Source: Adhaeribacter arboris (GTDB lineage Bacteria; Bacteroidota; Bacteroidia; Cytophagales; Hymenobacteraceae). Taken from it: a DNA stretch of 64,000 nucleotides. The stretch lies in NCBI RefSeq assembly GCF_003023845.1, contig NZ_PYFT01000001.1, positions 4,030,001 through 4,094,000 on the forward strand, read 5' to 3'. The notes beneath the pieces were generated by a model. The model was given only the letters and a program-made list of their open reading frames with translations, was not told the origin of the DNA and did not search any database. The translations under genes were made by a program, and so were the position numbers. Of this stretch, positions 36,762 through 43,477 are shown piece by piece. Numbering within the stretch: position 1 is the first letter of the stretch; each line of letters opens with the position of its first letter.

Positions 36762-37523
36762 TCAGAAGGATTTTACGATATCGGTAAAATCGCGGGATTT
36801 TAAAGAAGCTCCGCCAATTAAACCACCGTCTACATCTAGTTGCGAAAATAACTCACGGGCATTACTTGGGTTAGCGCTGCCGCCGTACAAAATGGTAGTA
36901 TCCAGCGCGGCCTGCGCATCGTAATGGCGGGCAATTTGTTCCCGGATAAAAGCATGTACTTCCTGAGCCTGCGCACTGGTGGCGGTTCTGCCGGTACCAA
37001 TCGCCCAAACTGGTTCGTACGCAATGACAACATTTGCAAATTCTTCGTTACTTAAATGAAAAAGGCCTTCTTTTAGTTGCGTTTGAATAATTTGAAAAGT
37101 TAAATCCTGCTCCCGTTGTTCTAACGATTCGCCGACGCAAAAAATAGGTTTAAGGCCTTGTTTTAAAGCAGTTTTAACTTTGGCTTCTAATAATTGGTTA
37201 TCTTCCAGAAAATACTGGCGGCGCTCGCTATGGCCCAGAATAACGTATTCCACTCCCACTGATTTCAGCATAGCCGCCGATACTTCACCGGTATAAGCGC
37301 CGCTTTCGTTTTGATGACAATTTTGGGCCCCCAGTTTTACTTTGTCGTTGCCTGCCAGAGCTTTCCCGATACCAGCCAAAAAAGGAAATGGTGGACAAAC
37401 TACTACGATTGCATCATTATTTACTTCGTCTTGCACCATATTGGTGATTTCGGATACCAGCGATAGACCTTCGTCGTAGGTCTTGTTCATTTTCCAGTTA
37501 CCAGCCACTATTTTCTTTCTCAT
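36762..37523 (-). CDS. tpiA: Triosephosphate isomerase
   Basis: Interconverts dihydroxyacetone phosphate and glyceraldehyde 3-phosphate in glycolysis. The 253 residues contain the catalytic lysine in NWKMN, the histidine in VILGHSERR, the glutamate in VIAYEPVWAIGTG and the phosphate loop LYGGSANPSN followed by GGLIGGASL. All catalytic residues are in place. It is a monocistronic gene with its own terminator. Confidence 0.97.
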   Translation of the reverse strand: MRKKIVAGNWKMNKTYDEGLSLVSEITNMVQDEVNNDAIVVVCPPFPFLAGIGKALAGNDKVKLGAQNCHQNESGAYTGEVSAAMLKSVGVEYVILGHSERRQYFLEDNQLLEAKVKTALKQGLKPIFCVGESLEQREQDLTFQIIQTQLKEGLFHLSNEEFANVVIAYEPVWAIGTGRTATSAQAQEVHAFIREQIARHYDAQAALDTTILYGGSANPSNARELFSQLDVDGGLIGGASLKSRDFTDIVKSF

Positions 37524-37659
37524 GTCTTGGTTTCGTTGTTAGTTGCTCGTTATAAGTTGTTCGATTCGCGCGTAAGATTACGGATTTTACGGGAAATTTC
37601 TAAAACTAGCAGCCCGATTCTCTAAACAGCTGCGAAAAAATATGGCTCGGAGGCCTGCT

Positions 37660-38358
37660 TTAGATAAGGATGAATCCAACTTTAAAACCTAATCCTAAAT
37701 GTATCCGGCTAAAGGTACCTTCCCGCTTATCTACCGGCTCAATATAAAAATCAACGGGCGGGTCGTACTCGCGCAATTCTGCCTTAAAGGTATGATGGTC
37801 TATTTTAATCCGCCGCAAGCCGGGCCCGACAAAAACATCCAGCAATAATCTACGGAGAACCGTATATTCTAAACCTACTTTTAAACAAACTCCCTGCATT
37901 TTCCGGGTTACATCCGAGTATTCATAATGATAGGCATCTTCGTCTTTTAAGAGCCAATCATCCTTTTTCCGGTATTTTTCCGGACCAAAAAAGATTTCGC
38001 TGCTAAAATAAGGTCTGGATTTTTCGTTGGCTTTAACCCAAGCGGGCGGCATAAAATACTTTACTTCGGCTCTGATTCTATGGTACTCGTGCTGCTCCGA
38101 TTGAAGATCCGGGTTGGTATAAATTTGCTCAGCCAGCTTTTTATAGGGCAAACCATAATCCACGGAAAAGCCCAGCCGGTTTTTAATATTTGCTTGTACG
38201 CCTAACTGGATGGTAGCCGCTCTTGGGTCTAGTAAACTCAAGGGGGAAACCCGAAATTGGAAACCAATATTTTTTTGCTCCTGGGCCGCAGTTAAACGGC
38301 AAAGCAGCATTAAAAGAAAAGAAAAATAGCTTACAAGATATATTTTTTTCATTGTCAA
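37660..38358 (-). CDS. DUF3575-like outer-membrane barrel protein
   Basis: A 232-residue exported protein with a signal peptide (MKKIYLVSYFSFLLMLLCRL, cleaved near AAQ). It has the strand pattern of small outer-membrane barrels, with SPLSLLDPRAATIQLGVQ, VGLEYTVLRRLLLDVFVGPG and a terminal IHLGLGFKVGFIL strand. The family, DUF3575-like, is my best guess. Function unknown. It is the last ordinary-composition gene before the AT-rich island. Confidence 0.65.
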   Translation of the reverse strand: MTMKKIYLVSYFSFLLMLLCRLTAAQEQKNIGFQFRVSPLSLLDPRAATIQLGVQANIKNRLGFSVDYGLPYKKLAEQIYTNPDLQSEQHEYHRIRAEVKYFMPPAWVKANEKSRPYFSSEIFFGPEKYRKKDDWLLKDEDAYHYEYSDVTRKMQGVCLKVGLEYTVLRRLLLDVFVGPGLRRIKIDHHTFKAELREYDPPVDFYIEPVDKREGTFSRIHLGLGFKVGFILI

Positions 38359-38714
38359 AGGCTTAGGAACAAACCTAAATTCTTAACTTCAGTAAAAAGA
38401 GATTTGATTAAAATTTAATCATCTGAATCAGTATCTTCCTATAAAAATTGCTTTTGATCCAACTTCCAGTTTTATCGACCATTATTTTCTTTCTCATACT
38501 TTACTGAAGTTGTTAGATACTTATTATCAATAGTTTTGTGAATCAGTTTACGGATTTTACCCAGGAATGCCTAGAAGTTTGTTGAAGAAACTATAATAAT
38601 GGATTCAATAAAATATACAATTATAATATTAGTAACTCTTTGGAAAAAACTACACTAGAGTGCTAATTGAAATTATTAGATCAAGCTATAATAATTAACT
38701 TATTTGATAATAGT
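38359..38714. other. AT-rich region upstream of the SIR2 gene
   Basis: Marks a sharp fall in GC. AACTTCAGTAAA (38385-38396) and TTTACTGAAGTT (38500-38511) form a 12-bp inverted repeat 103 bases apart, and GATTAAA-A-TTTAATC lies between them. No coding frame and no exact promoter box are seen. Confidence 0.5.
38385..38511. repeat. Segment bounded by 12-bp inverted repeats
   Basis: Perfect 12-bp arms (38385-38396 and 38500-38511) enclose 103 bases. It could be a small inverted-repeat element or a remnant at the edge of the acquired island. No target duplication was recognised. Confidence 0.4.
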
Positions 38715-40616
38715 ATGAATTCAGCACATTTGTCTGCCTTATTCAATAAAATAAGAAATGAAGATGTTACTTTCTGGGTTGGAGCTGGCTTTTCTTTATA
38801 CGCAGGATATAAATCCGGGATTGCCTTAAAAGAATATTTGTTTGATAACTTAAGCAAAGAAGAACAGCTATATATTAATCTTAACTTAGAATTTACTCAA
38901 TTTATGGAAAAATATATAGAATTAAAAGGTAGCAAAAATTCTTTAATTGAAAGTCTAAAAACTTTATATTTAGAACAGTCTCCTAAAAGTATTGTTTACC
39001 ATAAAAAGTTAGCAAACGTACCTCACGTAAAGGATATTATTACAACTAATTATGATCGGCTTTTTGAACTTGCTTATGTAGATAAGTTAGAAGTAATTTA
39101 TAAACAAGAACAAATTCCATTGATAAACAAGAACAAAAAAAGACTTTTTAAAATTCACGGAGATTTAGCCGACCCGCTATCAATTATAATTTCAGAAACA
39201 GATTATAAGAGAGCTGCGAGTGAACAAAGAACAAATCTTATATGGCCCATTATTCAAGAAAGTATAATAACTAAATCAATTGTCTTCATTGGTTATAATT
39301 TAGAAGATTCAGATATAAATAAACTATTTAATAATATTCGAAAGCAATTGAAAAACTTAAAAAAAGAACAGTTTTTTATTGCTCCAAATATATCAACTTC
39401 AAAAATAAAAAATTTAAAGGAGTATGGAATTAAATACATAAACCTTAAAGGTGAAGATTTTATTGACGAGTTAATTAAGAATATAAATCATAATCTAATA
39501 TCTGATTATGACAAAGAGAGAATAAGTGAGAAGACTCTTAAAGATTACCTACAGCCTCATCAGCTTGAACCATCCTTGATTGTTGAAAATAATAAATACA
39601 GAATTAGTGGACTTAAAAATAAAAACCCTCAAGCTAATTTATTAAATGTTAAATTAGACTTAAATGAGATGGTTTCAAATAAGTTCAATGATTTTATACA
39701 TGGAAAATCTTCAAACAATATTAGGATTTCAAATAAAGATGTAAAAGACATTCAAGCATTTATAGGTGACATAAGAATAATAGATGGAACCGATTTTTCA
39801 TTTTTAGAATTAAAAATTCATCCAAATTTTGAATCAAAAGTAGCTTTTTTATTTCTAGAGACAGATACAGAACTTGAAGATATTCCATTAAAGGTCTATT
39901 ATTCTGAAAATAATGTTAAGTGCATGATTGAGTTTTCAAAGTCAAAGCTAACTATTTTTTTAAGTAATATTAGACCTGACTCATCATATATAAACTTTAA
40001 ATTTGACAATAGTGATGGATATTCTACTACTAGAGAAGAATTAAGAATTTATACGTTGCTTTATAATATATCTAAAGGTCAAAGGTTTAAAGCTATATTT
40101 CCCGAAGGGCAATCATTTGAAGGTGTAATTTCAGGAAATAAAAAAGTATTTGACGAAGCAAATTATTTAAAAGATTACTTTACCAAATTAAAAATAATTG
40201 AAAATAATTTTGGTTTTAGATTTGAGTTTATTGATGCTATTTCTGAGTCTACCTACAATTTAGTCAATAATTTAGTTAAAGTTATAGAGGATGGATATTT
40301 TGTGTATACAATAGATAAAGAACTTACTCTTGAGTTCAAAACAAAAACAAAATTCAATTGGAATCAAATTAGTATAAAAACCATTAAAATAACATTCACC
40401 TCAGAACCGATATCTATAAATCTAAATAATAAAAAAATCGAATTGGGTTATAAAATATACACTATAACTAACCCAGTTGTAGTTCACGATAACCAGACGA
40501 AATATGATCGGGTAAAAGTTAAAAATTTCCCTATTGGAATACATGTAAGCTTTAAATCTTCTTTAAATGAAATAGAAAAAGCAAATCGACCTTTTTTACT
40601 TACTATTGAAGATTAA
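38715..40616 (+). CDS. SIR2-domain protein with unknown C-terminal domain, candidate phage-defence effector
   Basis: The ATG at 38715 gives 633 residues. A TTG at 38667 could add 16. Residues 1 to about 255 are a SIR2-like NAD-binding domain: FWVGAGFS (20-27), DIITTNYDRLFE (107-118), KIHGD (146-150, likely catalytic His148) and IVFIGYNLEDSD (189-200). SIR2 domains in phage-defence proteins such as ThsA and the DSR proteins destroy NAD. Residues about 285-633 look rich in beta-strands and match nothing I know; they could sense a phage product. Codon and base use are far more AT-rich than either neighbour, and the gene stands alone, so recent transfer is likely. Defence is inferred from domain and context. 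Confidence 0.85.
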   Translation: MNSAHLSALFNKIRNEDVTFWVGAGFSLYAGYKSGIALKEYLFDNLSKEEQLYINLNLEFTQFMEKYIELKGSKNSLIESLKTLYLEQSPKSIVYHKKLANVPHVKDIITTNYDRLFELAYVDKLEVIYKQEQIPLINKNKKRLFKIHGDLADPLSIIISETDYKRAASEQRTNLIWPIIQESIITKSIVFIGYNLEDSDINKLFNNIRKQLKNLKKEQFFIAPNISTSKIKNLKEYGIKYINLKGEDFIDELIKNINHNLISDYDKERISEKTLKDYLQPHQLEPSLIVENNKYRISGLKNKNPQANLLNVKLDLNEMVSNKFNDFIHGKSSNNIRISNKDVKDIQAFIGDIRIIDGTDFSFLELKIHPNFESKVAFLFLETDTELEDIPLKVYYSENNVKCMIEFSKSKLTIFLSNIRPDSSYINFKFDNSDGYSTTREELRIYTLLYNISKGQRFKAIFPEGQSFEGVISGNKKVFDEANYLKDYFTKLKIIENNFGFRFEFIDAISESTYNLVNNLVKVIEDGYFVYTIDKELTLEFKTKTKFNWNQISIKTIKITFTSEPISINLNNKKIELGYKIYTITNPVVVHDNQTKYDRVKVKNFPIGIHVSFKSSLNEIEKANRPFLLTIED

Positions 40617-40663
40617 ATAATTTATTTTATTAATAACTTCAGATGTAAACTTAACTTGTTAAT

Positions 40664-43477
40664 CTAAACGAGCTTTTCCCGCAAATAATCGGCGGTGGCG
40701 TTACCTTCTAATTTTACCATTTCTTCGGGAGTACCTTCAAATAATAAATGACCACCATTGGTGCCACCTTCCGGGCCCATATCAATAATCCAGTCGGCGC
40801 ATTTAATAATATCCATGTTGTGCTCAATAATAACCACGGAATTTCCTTTATCAATGAGCGCGTTAATGGCGGTTAGCAGTTTGTTGATATCGTGAAAGTG
40901 CAGTCCGGTGGAAGGTTCGTCGAAAATAAACAAAATGCCTTCGGAATGAGCGGTGGCTCCTTTCGTTAAAAAAGAAGCCAATTTTACCCGTTGTGCTTCG
41001 CCGCCGGAAAGCGTATTAGAAGATTGCCCCAATCGGATATATCCCAAACCTACGTCATCGAGCGGCTTTAATTTCTCAATGATTTTCGGCTGTTCTTTAA
41101 AGAACTGGATGCTGTCGGCAATCGTCATGTCAAGCACCTCGGCTATGTTTTTATCGTGGTACTTAATTTCGAGAATGTCTTGTTTGAATTTCTGCCCGTG
41201 ACAGGCCTCGCAGGTAAGGTAAATATCGGCCATAAACTGCATTTCAATTTTCACCTGGCCTTCCCCCTGGCACACTTCGCAGCGGCCACCCTCAATGTTA
41301 AACGAAAAATGCGACGGCTTTAAGCCCCGGGCTTTGGCCAGCGGCTGGTCGGCAAATAAGGAGCGGATAGCGTCGTACGCTTTTACGTAGGTAACCGGGT
41401 TAGAACGCGATGACTTGCCGATTGGATTCTGGTCCACGAACTCTACGTGCGAAATTTTACTGTAGCTGCCCTGAATTTTATCGAATTTACCGGTGGCATC
41501 GGAGTGACCGCCAAGTACTTTTGCCAAGGCCGGATGCAGAATACGTTTAATAAGCGTAGACTTACCCGAACCACTCACGCCGGTTATAACGGTCATTACA
41601 TCCAGCGGAAATTTTACGGTAATATTCTTGAGATTATTCTCGCGGGCACCCACAATCTCAATGGTGTTACGCCACTGGCGGCGCTTTACCGGCACTTCTA
41701 CCTGGCGTTTGCCGTTTAAATATTGCGCCGTATACGTTTCGGTAGATTTTAGCATTTCCGGATAAGTGCCTTGAAACATAAGATTACCGCCACCCGAACC
41801 CGCTTCCGGACCAATATCAATAATCTGGTCAGCAATTTCCATCATTTTTTCTTCGTGCTCTACCACAATTACGGTATTACCAATTTTCTGGAGTGAGCGC
41901 AAAACGCCAATTAACTGCTCGGCATCGCGCGGGTGCAGACCAATACTGGGCTCGTCCAGAATATACATAGAACCTACCAAGGCACTACCCAAAGAAGTTG
42001 CCAGGTTAATACGCTGCGACTCTCCACCGGATAAAGTAGACGATAAACGATTTAAAGTAAGATATCCTAAACCTACCCGCACCAAATAGCTTAAGCGGTT
42101 GGTAATTTCTATTACTAAGCGGTCGGCTACCTGCAATTCGTGTTCGGTTAACTGGATGTTTTGGAAAAATTCCAGAACGCCGGTAATTGGTTTTAAAAGT
42201 AAATCGGTAATGCTGGTACCGTTAATTTTTACGTAGCTCGCATCTTTACGCAAGCGCGTTCCCCGGCAATCGGGGCAGGTGGTGCGGCCCCGGTAGCGGC
42301 TGAGCATTACGCGGTATTGTATTTTATGCGTTTGCGCCTGCACGTGCGCAAAAAAAGCATCCAACCCATCAAAGTACTGATTACCCGTCCAGAGCAGCTG
42401 CCTTTGTTCTTCGGTAAGTTCGTTGTAAGGCCGGTGAATGGGAAAATCGAAACGAATGCCGTTTTTAATTAAAGGAACCTGCCATTCGCTCATTTTTTCG
42501 GTCCGCCAGGGCGCAATGGCTCCCTCGTACACGCTTAGGGTTTTATCCGGAATAACTAAATCTTCATCAATACCTAATACATTACCAAAACCTTCGCAAC
42601 GCTGGCAGGCCCCGTAAGGATTATTAAACGAGAAAAAATTAACCGATGGCTCTTCAAAAGTCATTCCGTCGAGTTCAAATTTATTGGAGAAAACGCGTTT
42701 TTGGTCGCCGTATAGAACGTGGCATTCGCCGTGGCCTTCGAAAAAAGCGGTTTGTACCGAATCGGAAATCCGGAATTGTAGATCTTCGTCGTCTTTACGC
42801 AATACGGCCCGGTCTACCAGTACATACACGTCGCCGGTTATATCGGCGGCATCGGCACTAATAACATCTTCAATAAATAAAACCTGGTCGTTATTGTAAA
42901 TCCGGGAGTACCCTTTTTGCAGAAGTAAGTCAAGCTCTTTGGTCAGTTTTCGGTCGGGCTGTACTTGTAGGGGGGCTAGAATTACTATCCGGCTGCCATC
43001 TTCTAAATTAAAAATAAAGTCAACCACATCGGCTACATTATCTTTGCGTACCTGGTTTCCGGAAATTGGCGAAATAGTTTTTCCAATGCGGGCATATAAC
43101 AGCTTAAGATAATCGTAGATTTCGGTGCTGGTACCTACCGTAGAGCGGTTATTTTTAATACTTACTTTTTGTTCAATGGCAATCGCCGGACTAATGCCGC
43201 GAATATAATCTACGTCGGGTTTGTCCATGCGGCCCAAAAACTGGCGGGCGTAGGAGCTGAGGCTTTCCACGTACATCCGCTGCCCTTCGGCGTATAAGGT
43301 ATCGAAGGCTAACGACGATTTACCTGAGCCGGATAACCCAGTTACCACAATAAACTGGTTACGCGGCAAGGCTACGCTTAAGTTTTTAAGATTGTGTACG
43401 CGTGCGCCTTTAATTATAATGAATTCCTTCGGGTCAAGGGTATCTATATCGGTTTGATGGATAGTTGCTGTTGTCAT
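40664..43477 (-). CDS. uvrA: Excinuclease ABC subunit A
   Basis: Damage-recognition ATPase of nucleotide excision repair. The 937 residues have the normal two-ABC layout: Walker [10 protein letters not shown] near the N-terminus and GVSGSGKST in the second half. Zinc-finger cysteine pairs are CQRC/CPDC and [20 protein letters not shown], with two LSGGE signatures ([10 protein letters not shown] and [10 protein letters not shown]). It is complete and no other uvr gene is in the window. Confidence 0.97.

Follow-up and report, generated by a model that had tools for sequence, protein, structure and literature searches.

The question raised by this locus is what a lone gene with a SIR2 domain at one end and an unfamiliar half at the other does in an AT-rich island of a Bacteroidota chromosome. 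Bacterial immune systems repeatedly turn to SIR2 NADases as their killing device, and they differ in how infection is sensed. The gene lies in a 64,000-nucleotide stretch of the Adhaeribacter arboris genome (contig NZ_PYFT01000001.1, positions 4,030,001 to 4,094,000), here called the window, and all positions below are counted from its first base. A preliminary description of the window had suggested that the gene could be an undescribed single-gene defence system.

The gene and its composition

The gene and its two neighbours are the following.

38715..40616, + strand: SIR2-family gene, 633 residues, with the stop codon counted within the coordinates
37660..38352, - strand: barrel gene of normal composition flanking the SIR2 gene, which adjoins tpiA also in genomes G004 and G007
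40664..43477, - strand: uvrA (named from its sequence), flanking the SIR2 gene on the other side and found in 8/8 genomes of the genus

The reading frame is unbroken over 633 codons. It is open from a TTG at 38667, and the ATG at 38715, where the alignment of the family begins, is preferred as the start. The AT-rich segment at 38359-40663 (2.3 kb) has a GC content of 0.258, against a mean of 0.425 elsewhere in the window (sd 0.020, minimum 0.374; 571 windows of 2305 bp at a step of 100, all outside the segment), and the GC3 of the gene is 0.19, compared with 0.41-0.49 in four neighbouring genes. The open reading frame, the motifs, and the break in composition that had been reported at first are as described. 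No promoter-like or terminator-like site around the gene scored above shuffled sequence, and Rfam gave no match up to E 1 within 38300-40720.

An insertion at a changeable site

The gene order at the site is tpiA, barrel gene, SIR2 gene, and uvrA, where tpiA and uvrA are names that we presume from the sequences of these flanking genes. Both flanking proteins are present in all eight genomes of the genus, the host's own included, and in the other seven the sequence read from tpiA to uvrA does not show the SIR2 gene. Two features describe the interval.

38353..40646, no strand: extra stretch, replaced by 148 bp in genus mate G004 (L180)
38408..38497, - strand: decayed duplicate of the start of tpiA and of the region upstream of it, at the left edge of the extra stretch, 101 columns at 69% against 37492-37590, within a short ORF

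Similarity between G004 and the window stops at 38352 and restarts at 40647, with 148 bp between, and in G007 the gap from the barrel gene to uvrA is about 170 bp. The same flanking genes standing only 150-170 bp apart in two genus mates indicate that a lone gene was inserted. The contents of the tpiA-uvrA interval vary further: L183, L184, and L186 each carry a gene of 263-264 residues, L185 carries several other genes, and a recognisable barrel gene was not seen in the interval of L182, L185, or L186. The site is a changeable place carrying a lone-gene insertion. Tandem duplication is probably part of the history of the interval as well, since the left edge carries the decayed tpiA duplicate and G001 has two barrel genes in the same interval. 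Because the left part holds this decayed copy, the extra stretch is not all obviously foreign. An imperfect direct repeat at 38379-38392 and 40629-40642 (12/14 bases) is too short in AT-rich DNA to be accepted as a target-site duplication. In genome G003 (L182, G003:C1:6089013-6089477), tpiA is broken into two pieces that overlap, and one of these contains in-frame stops: a frameshift or an assembly error.

The SIR2 half

The N-terminal half can be assigned with the help of several searches that agree, and its features are listed here.

38715..39512, + strand: N-terminal SIR2 domain, residues 1-266 (PADLOC ThsA model over 7-266; fold matches to KomC, ThsA, and DSR2)
38781..38795, + strand: GAGFS motif, residues 23-27, with G23, G25, and S27 invariant in 28/28 sequences
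39048..39050, + strand: codon of Asn112 in TTNYD (residues 110-114), proposed catalytic residue by analogy with DSR2 N133, invariant in 28/28
39156..39158, + strand: codon of His148 in KIHGD (residues 146-150), proposed catalytic residue aligning with KomC H146, invariant in 28/28

Pfam places SIR2_2 at residues 108-242 (E 4e-26), and the best PADLOC model for this half is that of ThsA, spanning residues 7-266 at E 6.4e-25. Profile matches to PDB sequences are to ThsA, KomC, and DSR2, and the fold matches are to the same proteins, led for the full-length model by KomC (E 4.3e-16, target TM 0.79). Ten residues are invariant across the 28 family sequences described below (G23, G25, S27, N112, Y113, D114, K146, H148, Y194, and D198), and the Asp of KIHGD is retained in 22/28. 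An alanine change of N133 or H171 reduces the NADase activity of DSR2 (PMC10981675). By motif, N112 and H148 would be the counterparts of these two residues, and by alignment H148 would correspond to H146 of KomC. A SIR2 fold that keeps its Asn and His, as a SIR2 defence NADase domain should, is thus found here, and by analogy this half is likely to hydrolyse NAD+.

The same genome has a second SIR2 gene (L002; G000:C1:5374094-5374633, - strand), which encodes a SIR2-only protein of 257 residues with 30% identity over residues 71-249. Its neighbours look from their sequences like a transposase and a Fic-type protein, which is what we take them to be.

The C-terminal half

39522..40613, + strand: C-terminal half, residues 270-633, beta-rich, with no known relative; proposed sensor

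The last 350 residues had been said to match no recognised domain, and this held. No Pfam family reached its cut-off in the C-terminal half of the protein from the window, whose matches to DUF2584 and ThiI both fell under the respective cut-offs, none of the 28 members matches Pfam in this half at E<=0.01, and a profile of the half against PDB sequences gave nothing credible (best E 0.44). AlphaFold2 modelled the half alone with a pLDDT of 83.3 and a pTM of 0.74, and the full protein with 84.6 and 0.69. The predicted fold consists mainly of beta strands, with helices placed at about residues 439-453, 476-499, and 511-526. Foldseek returned no match of this model to the PDB at E<=0.001. Among the 50 PDB matches listed, structures of the sliding clamp DnaN form the majority. 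This recurrence is worth recording, but a clamp reading was rejected, as these matches reach no better than E 0.018, with probability <=0.18 and TM <=0.13. The sole match to a viral structure under 1e-3, VP5 of a crab reovirus, has a TM of 0.14 and was treated as chance. The profile and structure searches that the preliminary description had called for therefore uncovered nothing known, and in particular no close non-defence family.

A rare two-part family

A search of a named genome collection with a four-row profile returned 29 loci. Full-length relatives (617-644 residues as used) came from 27 of them and form, with the window protein, alignment A3 of 28 sequences; L034 and L035 match only the SIR2 part and were left out of the family alignments. 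Of these relatives, 26 are from Bacteroidota and one is from Clostridium gasigenes, and the C-terminal half is common to all. Further members are L006, L037, L039, L040, and L042. The family is rare: with the host's own genome counted each time, it occurs in 4/204 genomes of the host's taxonomic family and in 5/390, 1/395, and 6/395 (two of the six strong) in the other counts. The gene tree leaves the window protein unplaced, on a long branch outside every starred group.

Within the genome searches made, the C-terminal domain never appeared by itself or joined to a different effector. For every C-terminal match below E 1e-7, the reading frame is 563-675 residues long and includes the SIR2 part, and four weak matches have E values of 6.6e-4 to 0.009 over 47 to 94 positions. 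Among plasmids, the C-terminal half from the window found no match, and a search with L009 as query gave one record covered to >=80%. The member on the Hymenobacter plasmid pHA is annotated as a SIR2 family protein, and a recombinase gene lies next downstream. A first scan of viral contigs gave no match; a second gave 72 loci, one of which, L047, matches over most of the length. It is a contig listed as viral in IMG/VR, with the same genes as the Dysgonomonas locus L015. Phage records gave seven matches, all to the SIR2 part only. A resolvase-type recombinase gene, at L022:9379-9936 (Pfam PF00239) and at L027:9378-9935, stands directly upstream of the Chryseobacterium members.

The two halves of the protein diverge at different rates. 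Mean pair identity over the 28 sequences is 21.0% in the C-terminal half and 42.5% in the SIR2 half, and the C-terminal half is the less conserved in 376/378 pairs. The best allelic pair is from Flavobacterium, where L018 and L033 are diverged alleles at one genomic site with shared flanks: the upstream flank DNA is 84-85% identical and the SIR2 halves 85%, against 53% for the C-terminal halves. In this pair, dS too is raised in the C-terminal half (1.49, with 0.65 in the SIR2 half), so the pattern suggests segment exchange no less than selection. In L021, L023, and L029 the C-terminal dN is about twice that of the SIR2 half at a similar or lower dS, and in three close Chryseobacterium members the halves do not differ in dN. 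The C-terminal half changes faster than the SIR2 half, which does not imply positive selection, as no pair computed has dN/dS above 1.

Neighbouring genes of the relatives

Neighbour families were built from ORFs of >=80 residues at the 27 loci, with 10 kb flanks where the contig allowed. Besides the SIR2 protein itself, no neighbour family occurs at more than 4/27 loci. By this measure there is no conserved partner gene, as is expected of a single-gene system.

For defence genes, up to six nearest genes per locus were compared with PADLOC models (146 proteins). The controls were 17 arbitrary stretches of related genomes (17 of 20 chosen existed), each at one arbitrary coordinate and not matched for mobile DNA; they listed 140 proteins, of which three large ones were dropped for size, leaving 137. 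At E<=1e-5 the whole neighbour set matched 320 PADLOC families, including mad3 at 2e-76 in the tally, and the control set matched 12, with a best E of 3.8e-16. Strong matches (E<1e-20) were found for at least 14/146 proteins at no fewer than 9/27 loci, compared with 0/137 proteins and 0/17 loci among these unmatched controls. The corresponding Fisher p is 0.007 by locus, 0.011 with the related loci L021 and L029 merged, and 7e-5 by protein. The count of 14 is a lower bound because only 30 of the 146 proteins, chosen by eye, were scanned singly; the control set was scanned whole. The strong neighbours are as follows, where PADLOC PDC models stand for candidate defence systems only.

L010: PDC-S15
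L014: DdmD-like
L015: ATPase-Toprim type
L017: dGTPase and dCTPase
L021: HsdS, HsdR, and PDC-M65B
L023: type IIG restriction and dCTPase
L026: MkoC
L029: HsdS and HsdR
L032: PDC-M62A

In L021 and L029 the SIR2 gene lies between type I HsdS and HsdR genes. The other 18/27 loci have no strong defence match among the proteins scanned singly. The window gene has, by eye, no recognisable defence neighbour, and its recognisable nearest genes are housekeeping genes. The check on whether homologs sit in defence islands, called for at the outset, thus spoke for the defence reading: at least nine of the 27 loci show the association, against 0/17 controls.

Some neighbours deserve mention in their own right. 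Related proteins of 335-336 residues directly precede the SIR2 gene, between HsdS and HsdR, in two Flavobacteriia (L021:8979-9986 and L029:8976-9980), and the L021 copy, which was the one scanned, matched nothing in PADLOC or Pfam. Proteins of 726 and 538 residues (L015:6105-8282 and L015:8362-9975, also in L047) lie between the ATPase-Toprim-type gene and the SIR2 gene. Neither has a Pfam or PADLOC match, and the two could form an undescribed defence operon.

Proposed function and alternatives

The proposal that we consider probable is that the gene is an undescribed single-gene abortive-infection system that resembles DSR2 in its mode of action, stands outside the DSR2 family, and would protect against phage. 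We infer an oligomer that hydrolyses NAD+, sensing by the C-terminal half, a phage product as the trigger, and arrest or death of the cell as the outcome. In the uninfected cell the SIR2 domain would be idle. On infection the beta-rich C-terminal domain would bind a phage product, and this change would reach the SIR2 domain, probably within an oligomer like that of DSR2. NAD+ would then be hydrolysed at the active site, which contains Asn112 and His148, and the cell would stop or die before phage is released.

This defence reading is favoured because the SIR2 half finds its best matches, by sequence and by fold, among defence NADases (KomC, ThsA, and DSR2), N112 and H148 are invariant, no partner is conserved, defence genes lie near relatives, the C-terminal half is variable, and the gene is a lone insertion with empty sites. 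The plasmid member beside a recombinase gene and L047 on an IMG/VR contig also favour it. Against it stand the window gene without a recognisable defence neighbour and the 18/27 relatives with none in single scans, together with the Chryseobacterium halves that are alike in rate, the absence of dN/dS >1, the raised dS of L018/L033, and controls that were not matched for mobile DNA. The results support the defence hypothesis rather than prove it. The initial suggestion of a single-gene system gains from relatives that keep the two-part protein, share no common partner of >=80 residues, and include one on a plasmid and one on an IMG/VR contig. A bolder form, to which we give an even chance, is that the last 360 residues form a new fold for direct recognition of a phage component, and that the family is a third kind of single-protein defence-associated sirtuin, moving as one-gene cargo mainly through Bacteroidota, its sensor diversifying more rapidly than its NADase.

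Other explanations share part of this evidence. The protein could be the effector of a signalling pathway, with a C-terminal domain that binds a small molecule from a protein encoded elsewhere, like ThsA with cyclic ADP-ribose isomers. The SIR2 half is indeed closest to ThsA in profile searches, and ThsA is activated by a signal (PMC11204291). However, a SLOG-like fold was not found in the C-terminal model, the 27 loci have no conserved neighbour able to make a signal, and the rapid variation of this domain fits less well with a small ligand that stays fixed, which leaves this explanation unlikely. Decidedly unlikely is a role against plasmids or other mobile DNA, or in guarding a different mobile element, where the NADase mechanism would be unchanged and the trigger would be something other than a phage product. 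Members beside recombinase genes and on a plasmid would fit, as would the DdmD-like gene adjoining the L014 member, but the strong neighbours are for the most part restriction or nucleotide-depletion genes, familiar from phage defence.

Deacylases occur among SIR2 proteins, and with housekeeping genes around the window gene a cellular deacylase or metabolic regulator without a defence role can be imagined. We think this very improbable in view of the patchy presence (4/204 genomes of the family, own included), the lone AT-rich insertion with empty sites, the defence-gene neighbours of relatives, and best matches that are NADases. The least probable explanation is that the gene is foreign AT-rich cargo, with little or no expression in this host and no present function. 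A composition far from that of the genome and the lack of promoter or terminator signal above shuffles point that way, but the frame is intact over 633 codons and all invariant SIR2 residues are kept.

Comparison with known systems

DSR1 and DSR2, the defence-associated sirtuins, are likewise single proteins in which a SIR2 domain at the N-terminus is followed by a large C-terminal part. The C-terminal domain of DSR2 senses the phage tail tube protein, and NAD+ hydrolysis follows (PMC10981675). The window protein is much smaller, at 633 residues compared with about 1005 for DSR2 and 1263 positions for the Dsr1 model, and the matches of the family to DSR1/DSR2 are confined to the SIR2 part (residues 12-237 only for DSR2 in the PDB). 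The PADLOC Dsr1 and Dsr2 models match 11/28 and 7/28 members, none shown full-length. Membership was rejected with an NCBIfam Dsr1 score of 12.6 bits against a cut-off of 1400 and no full-length match found.

ThsA, whose PADLOC model is the best for the SIR2 half, is a protein of about 480 residues with a SLOG C-terminal domain that is activated by a signal (PMC11204291). The ThsA match ends at residue 266, with no PDB fold at E<=0.001 for the C-terminal half, so that a SLOG domain after SIR2 was not found. ThsA also has a partner, ThsB, whereas the window family has no conserved one at 27 loci; no adjacent thsB with a TIR domain was found, and the neighbours in the window are by eye other genes. 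KomC is the top fold match, and its His146 aligns with His148. It is a SIR2 domain of 264 residues that has KomB as partner in solved complexes, and it was set aside as the family because it lacks the C-terminal half of the window protein.

The SIR2-APAZ protein of SPARSA is similar in having SIR2 followed by a C-terminal part of comparable size. No APAZ was found, as hhalign of the C-terminal half against the C-terminal parts of three PADLOC SIR2-PNTD proteins gave a probability of 0.05%, and among the 27 loci no conserved neighbour corresponds to the adjacent short Argonaute of SPARSA or to the adjacent herA of SIR2-HerA (GAO_19). The PADLOC candidate PDC-S25 is a single SIR2 protein of similar size, and for two of its models the SIR2 part is matched in 28/28 and 27/28 members. 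The match in the window protein is confined to residues 55-218, and the C-terminal part of the family has no relation to that of PDC-S25 (hhalign probability 0.10% with L145).

The related literature found consists mostly of papers and reviews on DSR2, Thoeris, and short Argonautes. No description of SIR2 joined to this C-terminal half was found in the openly readable literature, including the available parts of PMC11514479, PMC10952713, PMC10981675, and PMC9519451; the PADLOC version is from 2023, and a later name is possible. The main text of DefensePredictor (PMC13092281) contains none of the terms SIR2, sirtuin, or NADase. Compared with these systems, a compact protein of 633 residues seems to unite sensor and killer without a partner, and its C-terminal domain is well modelled yet matches no solved fold in the search made. 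The trigger of this domain, once found, would add a mode of sensing to those already known for SIR2 immunity.
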